Shown one piece after another: positions 15,001 through 32,107 of a stretch of DNA of 33,908 nucleotides (its first letter is position 1; every line of letters begins with the position of its first letter). A program made the position numbers and the translations under genes. The notes under the pieces were generated by a model. The model was not told the origin of the DNA. It saw only the letters and a list, made by a program, of their open reading frames with translations, and did no database searches. Source of the stretch: a virus; the IMG/VR virus record IMGVR_UViG_3300024520_000291, positions 1-33,908 of that record, one strand, 5' to 3'.

Positions 15001-16989
15001 AGGTATTACTGGATTGGAATATTTAACGCTAACGGGGTTGAACAGGGCCACGGTTCGAACATATCAACCATTAGTGCCACTGGTGGAAACCCGTCACTGA
15101 CACAACCCGCAACGTTAACCGCAACAACAATGAAAGGCGGCGTATTTTTATCTTGGAGCAACATTAAGGAAGGGGCGCTTGATACGATCAACCTTTACGC
15201 AAGTTCCCAAAACAACTTTACAACCGCAAACCAGCTAATCGCGTCCGGAAACATTACCGAGTGGAATCACCTGTACACCAATTCCGGCGTAAGTATGGTT
15301 GGGAAGCTTCGGTATTACTGGATCAAATCCGTTAACGCCAACGATGCGGAATCCGCCATATATCCAGCCAACATATCAACCATCAGTGCAACCGGTGGCA
15401 CATTGGACTATGGCGACGTTTCTGGCGGGCCGCCCTCTGACGCCACCAAAACGACTGTATTTTTTCTAACCTCTGCGCCAACTTCACAAGGAGTAGACGG
15501 GGATTTGGCAAAAGTAACCATTGCCGGGGATGTAACTTATTACATAAAAGAGGGCTCAAACTGGATATTGACTTCAGACATAACGGCACAGCAAACCGCC
15601 GCCGGAATTGCTGGACAGGGTTCACTGGCAACACAGAATAACGCTGACTTTGCAACTGATGTAACGGGTACAGAAAAGCCGGACGATAATGCAACTAATA
15701 ATAAGGTTTGGTTTTTAACTTCCGCACCAACAACACAGGGAACAAACGGTGACTTAGCGAAGGTTACTATTTCGGGGGACGTTACTTATTACGTTAAAGA
15801 ATCCTCAACGTGGGTTTTGACTTCAGACATTACCGCGCAACAAACAGCGGCTGGGATTGCTGGTCAAGGGGCACTGGCAACACAAAGTACGGCTGATTTT
15901 GCAACAGATGTTTCTGGCGCACAAAAACCCGCAAATAACGCAGATGTAACCAGCGCCAATACAGCGGCGGGGATTACTGGCCAAGGCTCGTTAGCAACAC
16001 AGAACAATGCTGACTTTGCCTCTGATGTAACGGGATCAGCAAAACCCGAAGACAACGCAACATTTTCAGTAATTAATTTTGGAAATACTGCATCGCGACC
16101 TGCGCCGTGGGTATCGGGAGAGAACGATTTATACTTTGACACAGAAACCCATGTTTTGGGGTACTTTGATCCAGGTGTAAACAATTGGCGCGGGTATAAC
16201 ATTAGTGCGACATATCTGGATACAAATTTGTATTCAGATTATTCAACTACTGCGCAAGCGGCGGCTTTATATCTGGGGATTACTGCAACGGCGGCAGACA
16301 GTAGTAAGCTTGGTGGAACTGTTGCCGCTTCCTATCTGCTGAGTGCGACAGCAGCAAGCACTTACCTTGGAATCTCTGCCAAGGCTGCAGACAGTGAACT
16401 GTTAGATGGAGTTAATGGCACGTCGTATGCCAGAACAGATCAGGCTGATACACACTCAAGCATTATCACGGGGCTGTTGGATGTAACTGGAAATGGTATC
16501 AAATACACAGGTGCCACTGCCGGTGGCGGAACGCTGGCGGTAGTTGGTTTCCGTTGGGCAACGCCAAACCTGGTTGGTGTGGTGAGTAACACCACCACCA
16601 TGACAGTGGGCACCACGTCAGATCATCGGCTGAAGGATGTGCAAGGGCCGATGATCAATGGCCTGAAAACGTTGAAGCAAATTCGTACCTGGTCATACAA
16701 AAGCAAGCCGGGTTGGGGTGAAGGTGAATGTGATGAACAGACGTTGCATTATGGGGTTCTGGCACATGAAGTTGCTGATGTAATTCCGTCTCTTGTGATG
16801 GGTGAAAAAGATGAAAGCCATTTTGTTTATGACGATGATACAGGCTTGTTTGCCGTAGAGGTTCCAAAATACCAAAGTGTTAACTACGCGTTGTTTACTC
16901 CATTTTTGATTGATGCAGTTAAAGAGCTCTCAGATACCATAGATGTGTTAAAGGCCGAAATTGCAGAGTTGCAAGAAAAAATTAAATGA
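12016..16989 (+). CDS. Tail tip/host-specificity protein with FN3 repeats and S74 chaperone
   Basis: A 1657-residue protein, functionally like lambda gpJ plus a fibre. N-terminal residues 1-45 are hydrophobic, as in many tail hub proteins. Residues about 50-500 form the hub region. Residues about 500-1130 are six tandem FN3-like repeats of about 104 residues, each with YASSQ, a SDKS-like element and GKxRYYW. Two and a half collar-like repeats follow (GDLAKVTIAGDVTYY; QTAAGIAGQGSLATQNNADF). The end is a peptidase S74 intramolecular chaperone: SDHRLK supplies the Ser1535/Lys1540 pair, with YGVLAHEVADVIPSLV and a terminal coiled coil. It should trimerise the fibre and cut itself off just before Ser1535. 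ATG 12016 is preferred over TTG 12004 because of the TAATG overlap. Confidence 0.92.
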   Translation: MPHALAAAIVTALNITAHVGFWTAVIELSIIATGTFVANALFGPELPKAPEPSLDYMARGDVQNQKRVYGEALVSGPLAYANVRQTAGTVDNEDLWQVVAHAGHECDSISDVYIDGTVITSAQQAGGGSGVVIGGTYYIGGHGYVLCNKHLGTATQTVDTDLDAAFTDIDSNFRGRGICYTVWQLELDHISIDVFKHPPNALKALVKGAKVYDPRLDSTNGGSGAHRLATPSTWEWSENPALCLADYLINSDQGAGFPTTAIDYSYVITAADHCDVTVSIPSSTEKRFTCNGVLWTSTSHRDNITKLTSSFNGRISYVGGQWRIRAGMYEAPSVSITDDDLAGDIKLQTATPADERFNTVRGIFVDPTENYAETEFLTITNANAVARDNGVTKYRDLVLPMTNSQYMAQRIGFLQLLQTANEKVVTIPTNLMGIEVAVGDTVDLTFEVPNYSGKIFRVENWAFDLERGVELLCREDSSSSYTDPLVGEYTTRVAGVVTPGAPVVPAPTSLVASSMSGGVHLAWVLPLLLSQYETIELYASSQSDWTVANELIFSGLADTFDHLFTNSGKSMVGKERWYWVKAIDLAGNESLRFPDNDISTITAIGGEVGTDPITSLTAQAMPAGIQLNWTNPVDGEFDFIRIYASSQDTFSVANEIVFEGHTNTFDHLWTNSDKSVAGKTRYYWGAAVNAAGEESVKDPATDVSTVTAVGGDVIVTDVTNLQAFAMPGGVQLTWTNPTAEPEFTNINLYASSQNDFNVANELIFSGLADKFDHLWTNSDKSMVGKLRYYWVRHVNPGGSEGPLHPAQVSTVSATGGDPAAISLPTSLAAEATPTGILVTWVPPVAEPEFYEIVLYASSQNNWTTAHEEVWRGNADQFHHEFSNSDKSLIGKTRWYWIAIDNPAATESGHGSNISTITATGGNVAVTVPTGLAAEASPTGIFVTWSNPSDEPFLELVLYASSQNNWTTAHEEVWRGVAEAYHHEFSNSDKSLVGKTRYYWIGIFNANGVEQGHGSNISTISATGGNPSLTQPATLTATTMKGGVFLSWSNIKEGALDTINLYASSQNNFTTANQLIASGNITEWNHLYTNSGVSMVGKLRYYWIKSVNANDAESAIYPANISTISATGGTLDYGDVSGGPPSDATKTTVFFLTSAPTSQGVDGDLAKVTIAGDVTYYIKEGSNWILTSDITAQQTAAGIAGQGSLATQNNADFATDVTGTEKPDDNATNNKVWFLTSAPTTQGTNGDLAKVTISGDVTYYVKESSTWVLTSDITAQQTAAGIAGQGALATQSTADFATDVSGAQKPANNADVTSANTAAGITGQGSLATQNNADFASDVTGSAKPEDNATFSVINFGNTASRPAPWVSGENDLYFDTETHVLGYFDPGVNNWRGYNISATYLDTNLYSDYSTTAQAAALYLGITATAADSSKLGGTVAASYLLSATAASTYLGISAKAADSELLDGVNGTSYARTDQADTHSSIITGLLDVTGNGIKYTGATAGGGTLAVVGFRWATPNLVGVVSNTTTMTVGTTSDHRLKDVQGPMINGLKTLKQIRTWSYKSKPGWGEGECDEQTLHYGVLAHEVADVIPSLVMGEKDESHFVYDDDTGLFAVEVPKYQSVNYALFTPFLIDAVKELSDTIDVLKAEIAELQEKIK
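13515..15405 (+). repeat. Six tandem FN3-like repeats inside the tail tip gene
   Basis: Six in-frame units of about 310 bp. Each unit runs from a 'TSLxAxxMxGGVxLxW' start through LYASSQN, FxHxxxNSDKSxVGK and RYYW to STIxATGG. Units 4 and 5 share an uninterrupted 29-bp identical stretch around 'actactgcacatgaagagg', and units 3 and 6 share about 20 bp around 'atggttgggaagcttcgg', while the rest has diverged. Local identity inside diverged repeats points to gene conversion or slippage between units. Confidence 0.9.
15450..16060 (+). repeat. Tandem beta/collar repeats before the fibre tip
   Basis: Two complete units of about 250 bp plus a partial third encode FLTSAPT..GDLAKVTI.GDVTYY.KE...W.LTSDITAQQTAAGIAGQG.LATQ..ADFATDV. 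Unit 3 keeps only the TAAGITGQGSLATQNNADFA part. Synonymous sites differ widely, so the duplication is old. These look like short triple-helical or beta-spacer modules of fibre shafts. Confidence 0.8.
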
Positions 16990-21429: not shown

Positions 21430-22370
21430 TGGGTTGGTATAACTTGGTTAAACACTTTAAGAAGTATCCGGCGGACAAGGCGCCGCTTACGGTTTTGGAC
21501 TTGTTCAGCGGTACTGGTGGTTTCTCGTTGGGCCTTGAACGGGCGGGACTAAAAACCATTGCGTTTTGTGAAATTGAAAATTACCCAACCAGGGTGCTAA
21601 ATAAAAATTGGCCGGAAGTACCAGTATTTCCGGACGTTAAGGAGTTAAACGGACATGAGTTTAAAGGATCAGTTGACATTGTTTGCGGGGGGTTCCCCTG
21701 TCAAGACATCTCCTTCATGGGTTCCGGCGCCGGAATCACGGGCGATCGCTCCGGACTATGGGGAGAAATGTGCAGAGTTATTCGCGACGTTAGACCCAAA
21801 TACGCAATTATGGAAAACGTCTCAGCACTCCTTAATCGAGGACTCGGAGACGTTCTCCGAGACTTGGCCGCGATCGGGTATGATGCGGAATGGTATTGCA
21901 TACCAGCTTCAGCCCTTGGTGCCCCGCACCGAAGGGATCGGATTTGGATTGTGGCCTACCCCGCTGACGAGCAACGGTGGAGCGGAACCGACCAAGGCGG
22001 TGACGGCGGGGGAATACGGGTGGCCGCTGAGAACCGCGGTTGTGGATTCGCTGAAACGGGTTCCAATGAAAATGTGGCCAACTCCACGGGAGTGCGATTA
22101 CAAGGGGTGCGGGCATCGCGGAACGAAAAGCCATCGCCACTGGTTGGGAAAAGGTTATTTAACAGCTACCGCAATGGAGGAAGAAAAAGAGAATGGACCT
22201 CTGAACCCGAATTGGGTCGAGTGGCTTATGGGGTTTCCAACGGGGTGGACCGAATTAAAGCCTTAGGTAACGCGGTGGTTCCACAAATTCCGGAGATGAT
22301 TGGACTTGCTATTCTTAGGTTGGAAGAGGACAAAAAAAGGGCCGGCAGACTTAAACCGGCCCTACTTTGA
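21429..22370 (+). CDS. DNA C5-cytosine methyltransferase
   Basis: 313 residues with C5-MTase motifs: I VLDLFSGTGGFSLGLERAG (22-40, S-adenosylmethionine binding), IV GGFPCQDIS with catalytic Cys91, VI MENVSAL (128-134), VIII APHRRDRIWIVAYP (165-178), a target-recognition part of about 90 residues, and X GNAVVPQI (280-287). Phage versions protect DNA from host restriction or mark it for regulation. The recognition sequence cannot be read. Codons 76-279 also contain a complete second ORF in another frame (21655-22266). The gene ends in a two-hairpin terminator and overlaps the exonuclease stop by one base. Confidence 0.95.
   Translation: MGWYNLVKHFKKYPADKAPLTVLDLFSGTGGFSLGLERAGLKTIAFCEIENYPTRVLNKNWPEVPVFPDVKELNGHEFKGSVDIVCGGFPCQDISFMGSGAGITGDRSGLWGEMCRVIRDVRPKYAIMENVSALLNRGLGDVLRDLAAIGYDAEWYCIPASALGAPHRRDRIWIVAYPADEQRWSGTDQGGDGGGIRVAAENRGCGFAETGSNENVANSTGVRLQGVRASRNEKPSPLVGKRLFNSYRNGGRKREWTSEPELGRVAYGVSNGVDRIKALGNAVVPQIPEMIGLAILRLEEDKKRAGRLKPALL
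21655..22266 (+). CDS. Nested ORF inside the methyltransferase gene (WPTP-type protein)
   Basis: A complete 203-residue frame lies within the C5-MTase gene, shifted by one base. It starts at ATG 21655 with AAGGAG ten bases upstream. Its blocks GGSPVKTSPSW, SETWPRSGMMRNG, two WPTP motifs (100-103 and 141-144) and the ending NPNWVEWLMGFPTGWTEL match a pattern I recall from stand-alone phage proteins of unknown function. The DNA for WPTP is the DNA for MTase motif VIII (VAYPAD), and that for WLMGFPTGWTEL also encodes VAYGVSNGVDRI. Either both proteins are made from one locus, or the WPTP pattern seen elsewhere is itself an MTase reading-frame shadow. No function can be assigned. Confidence 0.5.
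   Translation: MSLKDQLTLFAGGSPVKTSPSWVPAPESRAIAPDYGEKCAELFATLDPNTQLWKTSQHSLIEDSETFSETWPRSGMMRNGIAYQLQPLVPRTEGIGFGLWPTPLTSNGGAEPTKAVTAGEYGWPLRTAVVDSLKRVPMKMWPTPRECDYKGCGHRGTKSHRHWLGKGYLTATAMEEEKENGPLNPNWVEWLMGFPTGWTELKP
22338..22363 (+). terminator. Hairpin at the end of the methyltransferase gene
   Basis: Perfect 8-bp stem AGGGCCGG/CCGGCCCT with a 10-base loop, inside the last codons of the gene. It is followed at once by a second, longer hairpin. It has no T-run of its own, so it probably assists the next element. Confidence 0.5.
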
Positions 22371-22407
22371 AACCGGTGGACAACCTCCAAGCCTCCACCG
22401 GTTTCAA
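22367..22407. terminator. Bidirectional terminator between convergent genes
   Basis: Perfect 14-bp inverted repeat TTGAAACCGGTGGA / TCCACCGGTTTCAA with a 13-base loop, exactly between the converging methyltransferase and minus-strand operons. The right arm is followed by AAAAA, giving a U-tract for the minus strand; on the plus strand the U-tract is weak. Confidence 0.75.
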
Positions 22408-22413
22408 AAACCT

Positions 22414-22587
22414 TTACTCAAATTCGCTATCCCCCTCTACCTCTTCAACAATTTCGCGACACAAAAAGATTAACTGTTTTCGGTAATCTCGTTCATCGTC
22501 CTCTACTTTTTCACGATCGCAAATTGCCTCATAACAATCCCGTAAATCCCTATACGTGTTTTCAAACCTGCAGTAACTCATGTTCAT
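22414..22587 (-). CDS. Small conserved phage protein (MSYCRFENT type)
   Basis: 57 residues beginning MNMSYCRFENTYRDLRDCYE, an opening I recall from many short phage proteins of unknown function. The rest is acidic and helical. ATG 22587 has GGGAG eight bases upstream; GTG 22596 and ATG 22581 are alternatives. Last gene of the four-gene minus-strand operon, ending 7 bp from the shared terminator. Confidence 0.75.
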   Translation of the reverse strand: MNMSYCRFENTYRDLRDCYEAICDREKVEDDERDYRKQLIFLCREIVEEVEGDSEFE

Positions 22588-23030
22588 TTTTGGCACTCCC
22601 GGTTATTAATGGCGATTTCAAAGTCTTTTCTTGCGGCCGCATTTCCTTCATCCGCGGGGGTATTTCCGGGTTGAACCGAAAACCAAATATCCAGCCGACG
22701 TTCATACTCGGATTTTTCTTCTGTGTTGGAACCTTCAAGGCAGCTACCGTATTTGGCTTTAAGGGTTGTTCTGTACTCGTTGAAATAACGCTGGCTTGAA
22801 TTTAACGTTACTTCCCAGTCACCAACCCAAGCATCATATTCATCCTCTTCACAACCGTGGAATTCTGTTTCGATTGTCATAGAACCTTCCATTGGTACGT
22901 CTTCTATAACGGCGTAACAGGGAACCGAATAAACAGTATTGGCGAGCTTATGAAGGCGGCACCAAAAGATTTCATTAATGTCTGTTCGGTCAAGTTTGAT
23001 TTCTTCAACAATTTCATTTAGGGTTTTCAT
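22584..23030 (-). CDS. Unknown 148-residue acidic protein
   Basis: No family recognised. Mixed helix and strand: N-terminal helix MKTLNEIVEEIKLDRTD, a middle beta part (SMTIETEFHGCEEDEYDAWV; DWEVTLNSSQRYFNEY) and a charged C-terminus (DFEIAINNRECQK). Overall strongly acidic. ATG 23030 has GGAGG five bases upstream, and the gene overlaps both neighbours by 4 bp, so the operon is translated in series. Confidence 0.65.
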   Translation of the reverse strand: MKTLNEIVEEIKLDRTDINEIFWCRLHKLANTVYSVPCYAVIEDVPMEGSMTIETEFHGCEEDEYDAWVGDWEVTLNSSQRYFNEYRTTLKAKYGSCLEGSNTEEKSEYERRLDIWFSVQPGNTPADEGNAAARKDFEIAINNRECQK

Positions 23031-23512
23031 AACGTCCTCCAAATCTTTACAACTTCATCCACTGGTAGGGAGTTTAATATCCGGTATGTAGGATTTTCTT
23101 TTTTAAACTCCGCCAGGAAATCAGGCGTAGGTTTCCATTTTGGCTTAAGTTCCCATATGTCTGTTGAGTTCGGTTTTGTGTAAATAACGCGTTTTAACGC
23201 TTTTTTTACATCACGTAAAACCAGAAAATCATTAACCAAGTTTCCGCAAATGGTTTCAAGGCTTTGGTCCATTTCCCAAAATGTGCCATCCGACTCCTTA
23301 ATGTCGGTAACCTCTTTTGGTAAGGAATCAATGTACGCGTAAACCGCTTTCATTGTTTCCTTGTTTGTTTCATAAACACGGTCGGGGCCGCCGTGGCCAT
23401 CATTGCCAACTTTAGCAACGGCCTTGCCGTTTGCATAAAGAGTGGCTTCGTAACAATGGGTTTCTTCACTGGCGAATGCTGCGTACTTAATATTTTTAAG
23501 AATTAATTTCAT
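23027..23512 (-). CDS. Conserved phage protein of unknown function
   Basis: 161 residues. The N-terminus (MKLILKNIKYAAFASEETHC, then YANGKAVAKVGNDGHGGPD) resembles a widespread family of phage and proteobacterial hypothetical proteins that I recognise by pattern but cannot name. It is a mixed alpha/beta protein ending PTYRILNSLPVDEVVKIWR. ATG 23512 has GGAGG seven bases upstream and shares ATGA with the previous stop. No catalytic motif or membrane segment is seen. Confidence 0.7.
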   Translation of the reverse strand: MKLILKNIKYAAFASEETHCYEATLYANGKAVAKVGNDGHGGPDRVYETNKETMKAVYAYIDSLPKEVTDIKESDGTFWEMDQSLETICGNLVNDFLVLRDVKKALKRVIYTKPNSTDIWELKPKWKPTPDFLAEFKKENPTYRILNSLPVDEVVKIWRTL

Positions 23513-23784
23513 TGGAGCGCCTCCAACTTTTCTATGATGTCTTGGAAATTATCGCTGTTAATAATTTCTGATTCAAATTGTTCGTAATCGTCAAGCTGAC
23601 ACAGGGCAAACCGTGTTGCGGTTGGATCTTCACGTTGTTCTTTATCTTCGTAATCAAGCCAGACTTGAACGCGGGCTTTTACGTTAATAAAGGACGGGCA
23701 AATATCGTTTCCCCATGATGAGTTTTCAAAACCGTTGCCAGTAAGATAGGCTTCAATTTCTGCGGTGCTCATAGTTTTAAACAT
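23509..23784 (-). CDS. Unknown 91-residue protein, first of minus-strand operon
   Basis: First gene downstream of the promoter at 23834-23862. 91 residues from ATG 23784, with AAGGAG seven bases upstream (minus strand); longer readings to 23991 run through the promoter and are rejected. Sequence: STAEIEAYLTGNGFENSSWG, then KARVQVWLDYEDKEQRED and a helical acidic end (NFQDIIEKLEALQ). It is mixed alpha/beta and of unknown function. Confidence 0.65.
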   Translation of the reverse strand: MFKTMSTAEIEAYLTGNGFENSSWGNDICPSFINVKARVQVWLDYEDKEQREDPTATRFALCQLDDYEQFESEIINSDNFQDIIEKLEALQ

Positions 23785-23833
23785 TTTGTAACTCCTTGTT
23801 TTTGTGGTTGTTGGTAGTGACTCCAACAAAATC

Positions 23834-23862
23834 AGTGTACACAGGGCGTATACATGTGTAAA
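23834..23862 (-). promoter_or_regulatory. Promoter of the 22414-23784 operon with embedded operator
   Basis: On the minus strand: -35 TTTACA (23862-23857), exact 17-base spacer, -10 TACACT (23839-23834). The spacer contains a GTATAC core (23848-23853) and the -10 overlaps the palindrome GTGTACAC (23835-23842). The similarity to GTGTATACAC at 19170 and 23922 suggests control by the same regulator. Confidence 0.6.
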
Positions 23863-23921
23863 CCCCCGCGCACACCAGTAATGGCGGGGCCTGTAGGGGA
23901 GCAAAAACAAAATCCTTCCAT

Positions 23922-23931
23922 GTGTATACAC
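23922..23931. promoter_or_regulatory. Operator palindrome GTGTATACAC, second copy
   Basis: Perfect 10-bp palindrome followed by TTTATG, matching the copy at 19170-19179 followed by TTTGTG (12 identical bases from TGTATACACTTT). A -10-like TATGAT (23934-23939) lies just downstream, toward the DUF932 gene. A dimer bound here would block that promoter. Confidence 0.55.
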
Positions 23932-24005
23932 TTTATGATACTTTACGGGTCGCCCTGGTTTGGAAAGCACTCCGGCCAGGTTATAAACCACAAAGGAAAA
24001 TCACT

Positions 24006-25410: not shown

Positions 25411-26406
25411 ATGACCGATAACCTACTATCCAATAATCCTGAAGAAGACATTGCACCAATATCACCCTTCGGTGCGATCGAATATCCTCACAGTAAAGAC
25501 TCCTTACGCGCCGCCGTTTTTGCTTGTCAACACCTAACAGAAATCAATGATTCCGATGATTACGAAATCATAACCGAGGCCGCGGGCAGGTTGGCAGCAT
25601 TGAAACAGGAAACCGAAAAAACCCGCAAATCACTGAAATCCGACGCGTTAAAACATGGGAAACTAGTTGACAGTATGGCCAAGGAATTACAGTTGATACT
25701 GGAACCTACGTTAACCCGTTTGGCAAAGTTACGGGTTCTGTGGAATAACAGAAAAAAAATTGAACGTGAAGAAATGGAGCGAAAGGATAAAATCAGAAAG
25801 GATAAACTTCAGGCCGTTTTAGATAAAGTTACTAACTATCCCCTTCTTTGTTTAATGAAAACCTCTCAAGAAATAATGGGCGCAATGAAAGAGTTGGCGG
25901 ACATAACCGGTGATTGGGAAGAGTTTGAACTTGAAATTTTGTCGGCCAAACAAAAGGCCAGAGCTCGGTTAAGTGAAATGTATAACGATGCACTGGCCAA
26001 CGAACTGCAGAAAGCCGAACTTGACAAACTGAAACAGGAACAGGAAGAACAGAAACTAGGGCGGTTTACCAAATTATTTACAAGGCCAGAAAAACAATCC
26101 GTTAGCGGCCCTGAATACGAAAACGACTACACGGAGGCACCCGGAGCCAAAGTAGCAGAAGTTACCCTTTTTGATGAGGTTCAAGAAATTGACAAGGTGT
26201 TAAATGGTGTCCAACACAAAGAAGAGGTGTTACCCGGGACTTGGGTTTACTTCGAAGGTAAAGGGGACCTGCCGCCTTCTTTGGTTTTTGAAACTGAGCA
26301 CGAGTGGATAGAAACAATGGTAGCCGAAACGAGGGTAACGCCGCGAAATGTTTCCGTAGTTATTAGGTGGGACGAGGGGGACAAAGAGCAAGAGGGGTTG
26401 TTTTAG
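25411..26406 (+). CDS. Coiled-coil protein, unknown function
   Basis: 331 residues, not recognised by name. Residues about 50-220 are a long, highly charged helical region (LKQETEKTRKSLKSDALKHG; WNNRKKIEREEMERKDKIRK; ELQKAELDKLKQEQEEQK), strongly coiled-coil. The last 70 residues change to strands (PGTWVYFEGKGDLPPSL; VTPRNVSVVIRWDEG). Similar layouts occur in phage recombination-accessory proteins such as DUF1351, but I see no diagnostic motif. ATG 25411 has AAAGGAAA about nine bases upstream. It is preceded by the attenuator-like structure. Confidence 0.6.
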   Translation: MTDNLLSNNPEEDIAPISPFGAIEYPHSKDSLRAAVFACQHLTEINDSDDYEIITEAAGRLAALKQETEKTRKSLKSDALKHGKLVDSMAKELQLILEPTLTRLAKLRVLWNNRKKIEREEMERKDKIRKDKLQAVLDKVTNYPLLCLMKTSQEIMGAMKELADITGDWEEFELEILSAKQKARARLSEMYNDALANELQKAELDKLKQEQEEQKLGRFTKLFTRPEKQSVSGPEYENDYTEAPGAKVAEVTLFDEVQEIDKVLNGVQHKEEVLPGTWVYFEGKGDLPPSLVFETEHEWIETMVAETRVTPRNVSVVIRWDEGDKEQEGLF

Positions 26407-26410
26407 CCCC

Positions 26411-26620
26411 TGTGCATAACTCATGTATAAATGTGCGCAACTTTCAAATGTCCAAATTTCACGGAAGTTGTGCACGTTTGTTTACAGGGAACCACAACGT
26501 TTATACAAAAGTTATCAAACGGGGGTTCCCTACTGGTGGCGGGGGTTACGGTAATCTGCCCACAAGTAACGGGGCCCCCAATAACAACAACAACTTTCTA
26601 TATATATATACATTACTTTT
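26411..26620. other. Candidate replication origin with DnaA boxes and AT-rich element
   Basis: A 229-bp gap upstream of the DnaA domain IV gene. It holds TGTGCATAA (26411-26419, 9/9 to the reverse DnaA box TGTGNATAA), TTATACAAA (26501-26509, 8/9) and two 7/9 boxes (26422-26430, 26432-26440). An imperfect dyad pairs GTGCGCAACTT (26434-26444) with AAGTTGTGCAC (26466-26476). A second dyad, AGGGAACC (26486-26493) with GGTTCCCT (26524-26531), encloses the 8/9 box. A TATATATATATA tract (26600-26611) follows an ACAACAACAA run. Boxes, dyads and an AT-rich unwinding-like tract are the parts of an origin; direct proof is lacking. Confidence 0.5.
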
Positions 26621-26635
26621 AGAGGTGGCCGTAGA

Positions 26636-27025
26636 GTGAGGATGGATAAAACGTATTCCATGCGAGTAATTAAGCAATTGATGCGGCGTGGAAATGAAAA
26701 CGCCATTGAAGCCGTAATTGTTGAAGTGATAGGAAATTATTACGGATATACAGAGGGGGAGCTTTTTGGTCGGTCGAGGCAACAGCCTTTGGCCACGGCA
26801 AGAATGTTGGCGATGTCATTAATATATGAACAAGGGGGAATGTCCTTTCCCTGTATTGGAGACATGTTTTCCCGTGACCATACAACCGCGGTACATGCCA
26901 TAACCCGAATTCATGAATTGATAGAGTTGGAGCCGAAGTTTGGTAAAGAGGTTGAAATGTTGCGAACACGGGTTAAAGAGGAAACAAACCGGTACTTGAA
27001 AGTATTATCAAATGTCGAAAACTGA
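26636..27025 (+). CDS. Stand-alone DnaA domain IV (DnaA-box binding) protein
   Basis: 129 residues. Residues about 25-98 match the C-terminal DNA-binding domain of the initiator DnaA: a helix block (VIVEVIGNYYGYTEGELFG), the basic loop GRSRQQPLATARMLAMSLIY, and the signature SRDHTTAVHAITRI (DHTTAVHA at 81-88, the helix that reads DnaA boxes). There is no AAA+ domain, so it cannot itself form an active initiator filament. It may direct host DnaA to the phage, compete for boxes, or regulate. GTG 26636 has AGAGGTGG eight bases upstream; ATG 26642 has GAGG too close. DnaA-like boxes lie directly upstream. Confidence 0.88.
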   Translation: MRMDKTYSMRVIKQLMRRGNENAIEAVIVEVIGNYYGYTEGELFGRSRQQPLATARMLAMSLIYEQGGMSFPCIGDMFSRDHTTAVHAITRIHELIELEPKFGKEVEMLRTRVKEETNRYLKVLSNVEN

Positions 27026-27224
27026 AAGAGAAAGACAAAAATTAATGCTGTATCGGAAATGGTGGGATACCCGTAACGAACTAACCGTTAATAAGTTTGA
27101 GGTTGCAAGTAAAGCCGGTCGGCGGAGCATATTTAAACGGATAACCAAGTCCGATCGGTTTAAGCAAATGTTTGGTGAGACCCTTCAGGAGTATCACATT
27201 CAATTGAAAATGAGTAAAGAGTAA
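27012..27224 (+). CDS. Unknown 70-residue basic protein
   Basis: Very basic (about 20 Lys/Arg), helical, with no Cys or membrane segment (ERERQKLMLYRKWWDTRNEL; ITKSDRFKQMFGETLQEYH). It overlaps the DnaA-like gene by 14 bp and shares TAATG with the next gene. Its size and charge fit a nucleic-acid-binding helper, but that is an inference. Confidence 0.6.
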   Translation: MSKTERERQKLMLYRKWWDTRNELTVNKFEVASKAGRRSIFKRITKSDRFKQMFGETLQEYHIQLKMSKE

Positions 27225-27547
27225 TGGGGGTAACTGTAATGTTGTACGACCATAAACCGAATGAGGGGGCTTGTATTCAAGCCGTGAGAACCTCTGGACA
27301 GGTTGCGCACTGGCATCAATGTAGAAATAGAATTAGGAAGGATAAGTACTGCCTGCAACATCATCCGGATACCAGGGCACAAAGAAAAAAAGTTAACGAT
27401 CAGAAATACCGGTTACAAATTCAAAAGCGACAAAAACCAATGAGGGACTTAAAGGCTTTTCGGGAGGCCCTGGTTTTTATTGCTGATGGAATAAGTAATC
27501 CAAGACAGGTAGCATCCACGGCATTAAAGCGTGCAGACGATGATTAA
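27224..27547 (+). CDS. Small Cys/His zinc-binding-type protein
   Basis: 107 residues. The N-terminal third has ACIQAVRTSGQVAHWHQCRN and then YCLQHHP, giving Cys, His/Cys, Cys and His spacing of a zinc knuckle. A basic helical region (KKVNDQKYRLQIQKRQKPM) and ALVFIADGISNPRQVASTAL follow. ATG 27224 overlaps the previous stop (TAATG); ATG 27239 with GGGGGT upstream is an alternative start. Function unknown. Confidence 0.6.
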   Translation: MGVTVMLYDHKPNEGACIQAVRTSGQVAHWHQCRNRIRKDKYCLQHHPDTRAQRKKVNDQKYRLQIQKRQKPMRDLKAFREALVFIADGISNPRQVASTALKRADDD

Positions 27548-27932
27548 CAGGCGGATGCGGTGGGAGTGTGCCGATAAGGGTTGTTACCGGGAGTTGTGTT
27601 GTCCGAACCTATCTCTTTTCGATGGATGTTTCCCGGGGAAAATGTCACTTGGTGACGTGGACGGGATTATAGAAATTGGCGGCCGGTTTTTGATGTTGGA
27701 ATGGAAGGGCCCAAATGGCCAGTTAACAACCGGACAAAAGATTATGTATAACCGACTTACCGCTACATGCCCCTTTGTGGTTTATGTGGTGGACGGGAAC
27801 AGCGAAACTATGGAAGTATTTGGTTACCGTCGTTTTTGGTTGGGGCAAACGTCTATTTGGAAGAAGGCCAACCAAAGCGACTTAATGTGTGAAATACATA
27901 ATTGGGTTCAGTATACGGGAAGAGGGAAGTGA
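27540..27932 (+). CDS. PD-(D/E)XK nuclease-like protein
   Basis: 130 residues. The core reads MSLGDVDGIIEIGGRFLMLE followed by WKGPNGQLTTGQ, giving Asp (GDVDG), then Glu-x-Lys (EWK) and a downstream Gln, the metal-site pattern of small PD-(D/E)XK nucleases such as resolvase-like or VRR-NUC enzymes. The N-terminus has four Cys (CADKGCYRELCC), perhaps a zinc clasp. Start ATG 27540 overlaps the preceding gene by 8 bp; GTG 27531 is less likely. A second enzyme of the same superfamily sits at 31772. Confidence 0.65.
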   Translation: MINRRMRWECADKGCYRELCCPNLSLFDGCFPGKMSLGDVDGIIEIGGRFLMLEWKGPNGQLTTGQKIMYNRLTATCPFVVYVVDGNSETMEVFGYRRFWLGQTSIWKKANQSDLMCEIHNWVQYTGRGK

Positions 27933-27948
27933 CAGGAGTTACAGCACG

Positions 27949-28203
27949 GTGAAAACAAAAACGCGGGCATTAATGATTGATTTGGCGGCTAAACAACACG
28001 CCGTAAATGAGCTCAACCAAATGTTAACTCAACAGTTTCAAGACGTATTGGCAGGAATTAGAGGGCGTAATTATCACGCCCGGGCGGCACAAATCCCGGG
28101 CCTAAAAGAGAGAATACATTCGGACGCGGCGTTGGCAAGAAAACACAACATAACTGTGTATGCCCTTAGACGCAAACGTCAGCGATGGTTGGGCTTTGGA
28201 TAG
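27949..28203 (+). CDS. Unknown 84-residue basic protein
   Basis: Not recognised. It has a helical N-terminal part (LAAKQHAVNELNQMLTQQFQ) and a basic C-terminal part with an HTH-like rhythm (DAALARKHNITVYALRRKRQ). GTG 27949 with AGGAG ten bases upstream decides the start; readings from 27889 would lie within the nuclease gene and lack a ribosome site. A DNA-binding role is possible. Confidence 0.55.
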   Translation: MKTKTRALMIDLAAKQHAVNELNQMLTQQFQDVLAGIRGRNYHARAAQIPGLKERIHSDAALARKHNITVYALRRKRQRWLGFG

Positions 28204-31474: not shown

Positions 31475-31775
31475 CGGCCTTACCTTGCTATTTCAGGTGA
31501 GCTTTATTCTGTTTGTAGGGTTGTTTACCTTCATTGAGATAAAAAAGATTCTTGTTAAGCCACCAGAAACGAAGCCGGTAAAGTACGATGAGCCGAACCA
31601 CCAATATAAAACGGCGGATTTTGTTGCCATAACAGGACGGGTTTATCACGTAGACGCTCCCACAAAGGATGTATCCATTACACTTTGGCAGGGACGTAAG
31701 TACAGAGTAATGGTATCGGAAGACGTGGGGGAACTACGAGAGGTTACGGACGAGGACGAGGAGTTTTATTTATGA
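31458..31775 (+). CDS. Membrane-anchored small protein
   Basis: 105 residues with one N-terminal membrane helix (LTLLFQVSFILFVGLFTFIE), then a soluble part with a beta-like domain (YKTADFVAITGRVYHVDAPT; SITLWQGRKYRVMVSEDVGE) and a very acidic end (EVTDEDEEF). ATG 31458 overlaps the Arg-rich peptide gene. No family is recognised. The C-terminal part would lie in the cytoplasm if the short N-terminus is outside. Confidence 0.6.
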   Translation: MSFLIDGLTLLFQVSFILFVGLFTFIEIKKILVKPPETKPVKYDEPNHQYKTADFVAITGRVYHVDAPTKDVSITLWQGRKYRVMVSEDVGELREVTDEDEEFYL

Positions 31776-32107
31776 GACGAGATGGAAACGTAGACGGCAA
31801 TCAAACAGTCGTTGTTGCCATGTACAGGCGGCTTGGGTGTACCGTTACGCATACGTACCAATTAGGCGGGGGGATTCCGGACATTATTGTAGGCTGTCGG
31901 GGTGTAGTTGACTGCCAGGTGGAAATAAAGGACGGGCGAAAACCCCCGAATAAACAAAAACTTAGTACCGATGAGGTGGAGTATCATAAAGAATGGCAGG
32001 GGCGACCGGTTAAAATAATCACAAGTATTGAGGGCGTAATAGACCACGTTCACGAGCTCCGAGCGGACGCAAGTTTGTTACAAGAGGCCCGGAGAAACCA
32101 AACCTGA
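31772..32107 (+). CDS. VRR-NUC-type nuclease
   Basis: 111 residues, the usual size of phage stand-alone VRR-NUC proteins. Motifs are the N-terminal helix NQTVVVAMYRRLGCTVTHTY, the core GGGIPDIIVGCRG with the metal-binding Asp, then VEIKDGRKPPNKQKLS with Glu-x-Lys, and VKIITSIEGVIDHVHEL. VRR-NUC enzymes are structure-specific PD-(D/E)XK nucleases, suited to resolving recombination junctions or processing concatemers before packaging. It overlaps the previous stop (ATGA). Confidence 0.85.
   Translation: MRRDGNVDGNQTVVVAMYRRLGCTVTHTYQLGGGIPDIIVGCRGVVDCQVEIKDGRKPPNKQKLSTDEVEYHKEWQGRPVKIITSIEGVIDHVHELRADASLLQEARRNQT

Follow-up and report, generated by a model that had tools for sequence, protein, structure and literature searches.

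The replication origin oriC of E. coli combines oppositely oriented groups of DnaA boxes with an AT-rich unwinding region (PMC5742627, which also covers the role of DnaA residue R399), and E. coli DnaA contacts the bases through R399, P423, D433, H434, T435 and H439 (PMC7561715). Full-length DnaA is autoregulated via boxes in its own promoter (PMC5835720), and YfdR, a protein of a cryptic prophage, is reported to bind DnaA and to inhibit initiation (PMC4776307). For phages, DnaA is listed among the proteins of all HTVC010P-related genomes (PMC6811365), and the predicted DnaA sites of phages of Alphaproteobacteria are described as lacking positional asymmetry (PMC9437464). In the PMC literature under open licence, which mostly excludes the subscription journals, we found no functional test of a phage protein that consists of domain IV only.

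Here we analyze a virus record of 33,908 bp, IMGVR_UViG_3300024520_000291, in which a gene for a lone DnaA domain IV is preceded by box-like sites, a palindrome and an AT-rich tract. The window in what follows is this whole stretch of DNA, at its full length. A sequence-only reading had proposed that these elements form an origin module; we find that the elements themselves are present, and that their interpretation as an origin is less secure.

The contig and the surroundings of the domain IV gene

The record is of the linear class in IMG/VR, which is often the sign of a fragment. Its first and last ORFs extend past the contig ends, and no terminal direct repeat longer than 10 bp was found in the contig. 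Terminase, head, tail and tail-fibre genes are followed by genes for RecT, a RecE-type exonuclease and a DNA methyltransferase, and then by the domain IV region. The domain IV protein of 129 aa is encoded at 26636..27025 on the + strand, with a GTG start and an alternative ATG at 26642, and is separated from the upstream gene, for a protein of 331 aa, by a gap of 229 bp (26407..26635). In our gene set, which was picked by hand, this gap is the fourth largest of the contig. The downstream ORFs (27012, 27224, 27531 and 27889; together 27012..28203, + strand) are tightly packed and probably form one operon. Because they overlap, the 229-bp gap probably houses the operon promoter.

Among the ORFs scanned, a subset of all those in the contig, none matched a helicase, primase or polymerase. 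Neither phrog_9327 (primosomal) nor phrog_678 (O-like) has a match in the contig, and with no O-like or primosomal gene the partner for helicase loading is not seen.

Relatives of the terminase large subunit TerL were found in four viral contigs, none of which carries PF08299, and also in 80 genome contigs from many phyla. In 10 genomes with TerL relatives every domain IV match falls within an open frame of 324–529 aa, and these frames are probably host DnaA.

Other features of the contig were recorded along the way. The ORF at 27531–27932 shows a weak likeness to VRR-NUC and Holliday-junction resolvases, and both it and the ORF at 31772–32107 are weak matches to the phrog_93 endonuclease profile. 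Between the methyltransferase gene (+ strand) and the minus-strand genes, a 15-bp inverted repeat (22366–22408), perfectly matched and followed by a short tail of A/T, looks like a two-way terminator. The minus-strand ORF block at 22584–23991 lies where the GC content of the contig is lowest (0.42) and is almost devoid of family matches; it is possibly a lysogeny or accessory region. Inside minus-strand genes, a strong minus-strand fold is predicted at 23230–23400 (z −6.9 from 25 shuffles for 23248–23373; z −3.2 for a longer stretch, reached by 0 of 200 shuffles). Finally, the ORF truncated by the contig end (33537–33908) matches DUF2341, which is unexpected near the presumed lysis/packaging end, and may encode an adsorption protein.

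A stand-alone DnaA domain IV

The sole Pfam family in the 129-aa protein is PF08299 (Bac_DnaA_C), which covers residues 28–92 and scores 60 bits where the curated cut-off is 31.5 (E = 2.4e-16). Of the NCBIfam model for DnaA, TIGR00362, only positions 329–436 of 437 align (64 bits against a cut-off of 343.9), and because it is only the end of the model that aligns, the protein corresponds to domain IV plus the preceding helix. The AAA+ domain III and the N-terminal DnaA domains are absent and no AAA+ family was matched. A full-length DnaA initiator is ruled out, both by the length of 129 aa and by the alignment of no more than the last quarter of TIGR00362; membership of NCBIfam PRK06030 was also rejected, at 13–16 bits against cut-offs of 136–181.

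A phmmer search of the PDB returned the DnaA DNA-binding domains of M. tuberculosis (E = 4e-10) and E. coli (E = 8e-9). An AlphaFold2 model built from 57 aligned sequences has a mean pLDDT of 90.9 and a pTM of 0.82; its top Foldseek matches are 3pvp (M. tuberculosis, E = 4e-6) and 1j1v (E. coli, E = 1.7e-4), and it superimposes on these two DNA-bound domains with an rmsd of 0.9 Å over 91–93 alignment columns.

The recognition signature DHTTAVHA, which the sequence-only reading had pointed out, is encoded at 26876..26899 (+ strand) and forms residues 81–88, which align with E. coli D433–A440. By alignment, R48, P72, D81, H82, T83 and H87 account for all six of the E. coli base contacts (R399, P423, D433, H434, T435 and H439). 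Across 76 phage proteins D81, H82 and T84 are invariant (76/76), R48 is found in 73 of 76 and T83 in 61 of 76, and P72 is shared by 41 of 76. The protein is thus certainly a stand-alone DnaA domain IV without the AAA+ part, as had been claimed, and binding to DnaA boxes of the TTATNCACA type is the activity expected of it, as predicted from its family, its modelled fold and its contact residues.

Relatives in other phages

To place the protein we aligned seven phage proteins and used them as the query of a search, which confirmed at least 302 of 600 pattern-matching viral stretches, 80 of which were kept. Adding six loci from named phages gave 86 loci, with 75 closed ORFs of at most 260 aa. 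Full-length dnaA genes among the hits in the phage collection (L007, L015–L018 and, on a plasmid, L013) and a plasmid gene of about 260 aa (L014) had been left out before the counts. All 76 proteins, i.e., the 75 ORFs and the window protein, match PF08299, with no AAA+ among the families listed. Judged by their sequences, proteins made of domain IV alone are widespread among phages, and the window protein is another member of this type. No phage close to this one was found: the searches gave no close relative of the domain IV protein itself and no relative of the upstream 331-aa protein, the head protein or the exact double palindrome described below; the DUF932 protein has one relative, 30% identical (L188).

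The neighbours of the gene in other phages include replication genes. Specifically, in Gundel_1 it lies beside genes for an O-like protein and a DnaC-like loader, in ctGfd272 beside a gene for a replication-initiation protein, in RHph_N28_2 directly after a primosomal protein gene, and in ppBeUSDA76-2 about 1.6 kb before one. In Pelagibacter-type phages, Erf-like annealing proteins neighbour the domain IV gene. We also measured distances to phrog_9327 in 50 viral records, drawn from 80 loci. This primosomal gene is present in 14 of the 50, and 10 of those 14 have it no more than 3 kb away from the domain IV gene, compared with 3.3 expected under random placement (P = 8e-5), though this proximity overstates a specific link because early genes cluster anyway.

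The upstream survey covered 77 viral loci, which were left of the 86 after removal of 8 with ORFs above 260 aa and of one whose 5′ end was open. Over the 400 bp ahead of each gene there was no box enrichment and no perfect box: the 77 stretches (30.1 kb) hold 15 sites of at least 8/9, or 0.50 per kb, compared with 0.73 per kb elsewhere. As a rule, then, the domain IV gene is not accompanied by boxes arrayed upstream of it. Box-like words do peak at 200–400 bp inside the domain IV genes (L019–L098; 38 sites in 15.3 kb, 2.5 per kb), and these are probably codons of the conserved TVLHA/S stretch. The upstream gap has a median length of 4 bp over the relatives, an unreliable value since spurious ORFs shorten gaps and the window gap itself was miscalled. 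In six annotated phages the gap before the domain IV gene is about −1, 1, 4, 120, 153 and 347 bp; none of the three large gaps (120, 153 and 347 bp) contains a box array, and their folds have z values of 1.7, −1.9 and −1.6. Further large gaps that were inspected appear to be coding DNA that had not been called.

Boxes, palindrome and AT-rich tract in the gap

One 9/9 and one 8/9 DnaA box had been reported ahead of the gene, and we recover both as sequence matches: TTATGCACA at 26411..26419 on the − strand and TTATACAAA at 26501..26509 on the + strand. Between them lie box-like sites that match at 7/9, TTATACATG (26422..26430) and TTGCGCACA (26432..26440) on the − strand and TTGTGCACG (26468..26476) and TTGTTTACA (26478..26486) on the + strand; a further 7/9 match on the + strand starts at 26604. 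The six sites of 26411–26509 form two opposed groups, the left group facing left and the right group facing right.

The density of these sites is ordinary. No 120-bp stretch of the contig has more than six sites of at least 7/9, but this number is also attained at 16120, and six such sites within 100 bp also occur at 16175 and 21710. The same level (six or more such sites per 120 bp) is reached by 247 of 300 whole-contig shuffles, and the motif TTWTNCACA occurs five times in the contig against 4.2 expected, which is chance level; we thus do not accept the density of boxes as proving an origin. Local shuffles are more favourable: in 3000 shuffles of the gap, a 9/9 site together with a second site of at least 8/9 appeared in 0.6% (P = 0.006), and six 7/9 sites per 120 bp in 5% (P = 0.05). 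When the letters of the box were shuffled into control consensus words, 5 of 200 words attained six sites at the same place.

The two dyads noted before the gene are also confirmed. One is of 28 nt with 75% pairing (26407–26434/26497–26524) and the other of 15 nt with 87% (26429–26443/26465–26479), and they are nested as one long hyphenated palindrome (26405..26527, + strand) that pairs the left with the right box group and folds into a single long imperfect stem. The best ungapped dyad was equalled in 15 of 200 shuffles, and the palindrome as DNA (126 nt) has a z of −3.7, equalled by 1 of 200. As + strand RNA the stretch 26403–26528 has a minimum free energy of −46.3 kcal/mol and a z of −6.6, reached by 0 of 200 shuffles, and as − strand RNA the same palindrome is weaker (z −2.3). 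It ranks 7th of 538 contig windows as DNA and 2nd of 1076 strand-windows by RNA z, a ranking that favours the palindrome, whose bounds were set by eye while the comparison windows lay on a grid. G–U pairs make up only 7 of the 47, with 5 in the main stem, compared with about two A–C oppositions; because G–U pairs are so few, the difference between the RNA strands is not significant alone and does not settle the choice between DNA and RNA. In an RNA context of 281 nt the inner stem (approximately 26424–26509) is retained, while other pairings take the place of the outer stem. The palindrome region matches no Rfam family.

The AT-rich tract that had been noted, TATATATATATA, is found at 26599–26610. 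It falls within 26592..26621, the 30 bp of lowest stability in the contig, and 26577–26626 are the least stable 50 bp in its 33.9 kb. Over 100-bp windows the tract is third in instability after the windows at 23483, which starts the least stable one, and 32530. The least stable 30 bp lie approximately 83 bp from the nearest 8/9 box. The tract at 26592–26621 is a candidate for an unwinding element or for a promoter −10 region, since a weak duplex of this kind is not specific to origins and promoters can look alike. Triplets resembling a DnaA-trio were judged by eye in the tract and not used as evidence. The cumulative GC skew, which had been put forward as a check on the origin, has no turn at 26.4 kb; it is positive on either side and tracks gene direction.

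Interpretation

The reading that we tentatively favour, while rating it at somewhat below an even chance, is that the protein is the box reader of a phage replication module and acts on the gap as an origin or control site. This small, monomer-sized protein is no more than the end of DnaA that reads DNA, with the linker helix and domain IV, and would bind sites of the TTATNCACA type, first of all those in the gap before its own gene. With less certainty than the binding, the gap would serve the phage as its own start site of replication or as a control site, which the bound protein may mark or load cooperatively, and it would fall to host DnaA/DnaB or to an unrecognised phage factor to melt the AT tract and load the helicase. 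These last steps are assigned to other factors because the protein is without the ATPase part.

It is plausible that the gap (26407–26635) is a replication origin. The earlier claim that the phage supplies a box reader for its origin holds up as far as the lone domain IV, its canonical residues and the replication-gene neighbours elsewhere are concerned. The opposed orientation of the boxes, as in oriC, and the weak duplex near them also speak for it. The ordinary box density, the lack of box enrichment upstream of the 77 relatives, the absence of a skew turn and the lack of an O-like or primosomal gene in the contig argue against it, and an RNA hairpin accounts at least as well for the palindrome in which the two best boxes pair. 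Whether the protein marks an origin, captures host DnaA or damps host DnaA, all of which had been suggested, is not separable by the data here. A more specific version, in which the domain-IV-only protein binds the two opposed groups of boxes, in a palindrome prone to form a cruciform beside the weakest duplex of the genome, and recruits the host replisome without a phage AAA+ initiator or O-type protein, strikes us as improbable, the least probable of the readings that we consider.

These readings partly overlap, and our estimates for them need not sum to one. The position of the boxes, directly upstream of the gene and in one of the few large gaps, would also fit a DnaA-like regulator that adjusts expression of the early operon by sitting on the boxes of its own leader, with no origin involved. 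Such self-repression would be like that of DnaA at dnaAp, where the full-length protein autoregulates via promoter boxes (PMC5835720), and the operon promoter is probably within the gap, given the overlapping ORFs downstream. However, a search confined to the sigma-70 type found no promoter consensus of that type in the gap, and related genes are without upstream boxes, so that we regard control of transcription as unlikely. Equally unlikely in our estimate, though a rival to be taken seriously, is that the gap encodes a structured leader RNA, i.e., a + strand hairpin or an RNA-processing or attenuation element of the operon transcript, with the mirrored box-like sequences as a by-product of pairing. 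The strong + strand fold (its z, its rank and the weaker − strand) is what this explanation predicts, but a strong fold is equally predicted by a DNA palindrome, the folded stretch was placed on the palindrome by eye in a way that favours it, and the strand difference is not significant alone with 7 of 47 G–U pairs against about two A–C oppositions. The replacement of the outer stem in the 281-nt context and the lack of an Rfam match also count against it, and no relatives were found from which covariation could be judged.

A further reading is a host-directed decoy, in which the protein occupies host boxes (oriC, the dnaA promoter), blocks host initiation and frees the replication machinery, the phage boxes being incidental or self-regulatory. 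Canonical box-reading residues without an AAA+ part are what a competitive inhibitor needs, the related genes usually have no upstream boxes of their own, and YfdR offers a precedent for inhibition of initiation through binding of DnaA (PMC4776307). On the other hand, the reported target of YfdR is DnaA and not the boxes, and the clustering with phage replication genes elsewhere points to a role in phage replication. We consider the decoy doubtful, and less probable than the regulator or the leader RNA.

Free-standing DnaA domain IV genes occur across many unrelated phages, and what makes this locus unusual is that the gene is directly preceded by candidate target sites together with a palindrome and a site of easy melting. 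Such a layout makes it a compact place to ask whether a protein of this type serves the start of phage replication, the control of transcription or a block of the host origin.

Comparison with known systems

Compared with an origin of the lambda O type, for which direct-repeat iterons and an O-like protein are expected, neither component was found at the window locus: there is no tandem array at 26.4–27.0 kb, there are no direct repeats in the 229-bp gap, and phrog_678 and phrog_9327 have no match, so that this type of origin was rejected. The likeness to E. coli oriC is greater, in that the gap has two opposed box groups and an AT-rich region of low stability. Unlike oriC, the gap holds one 9/9 and one 8/9 box with the rest at 7/9, which makes it a candidate site only, and it sits in a phage without a recognised AAA+ initiator.

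The protein shares with bacterial DnaA domain IV (1j1v from E. coli, 3pvp from M. tuberculosis) the fold, the helix-turn-helix, the basic-loop arginine, the DHTT motif and the six base contacts. In contrast to bacterial DnaA it is encoded alone, without domains I–III, and is for that reason not expected to bind ATP, form oligomers or contact the helicase in the manner of DnaA. The stand-alone DnaA-C-like hypothetical proteins of PRK06030 are of like length (approximately 120–150 aa), with a weak match only, below the cut-offs. The closest counterparts in kind are the domain-IV-only "DnaA" proteins of the Pelagibacter HTVC010P group, Rhizobium RHph_N28_2, Tenacibaculum Gundel_1, Caudoviricetes ctGfd272 and Bradyrhizobium ppBeUSDA76-2, which are 22–33% identical to the window protein over their length. 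In the portions of these phages covered here their genes have no upstream box array, unlike the window, but the proteins are likewise small and PF08299-only, and they are encoded in early or replication regions.
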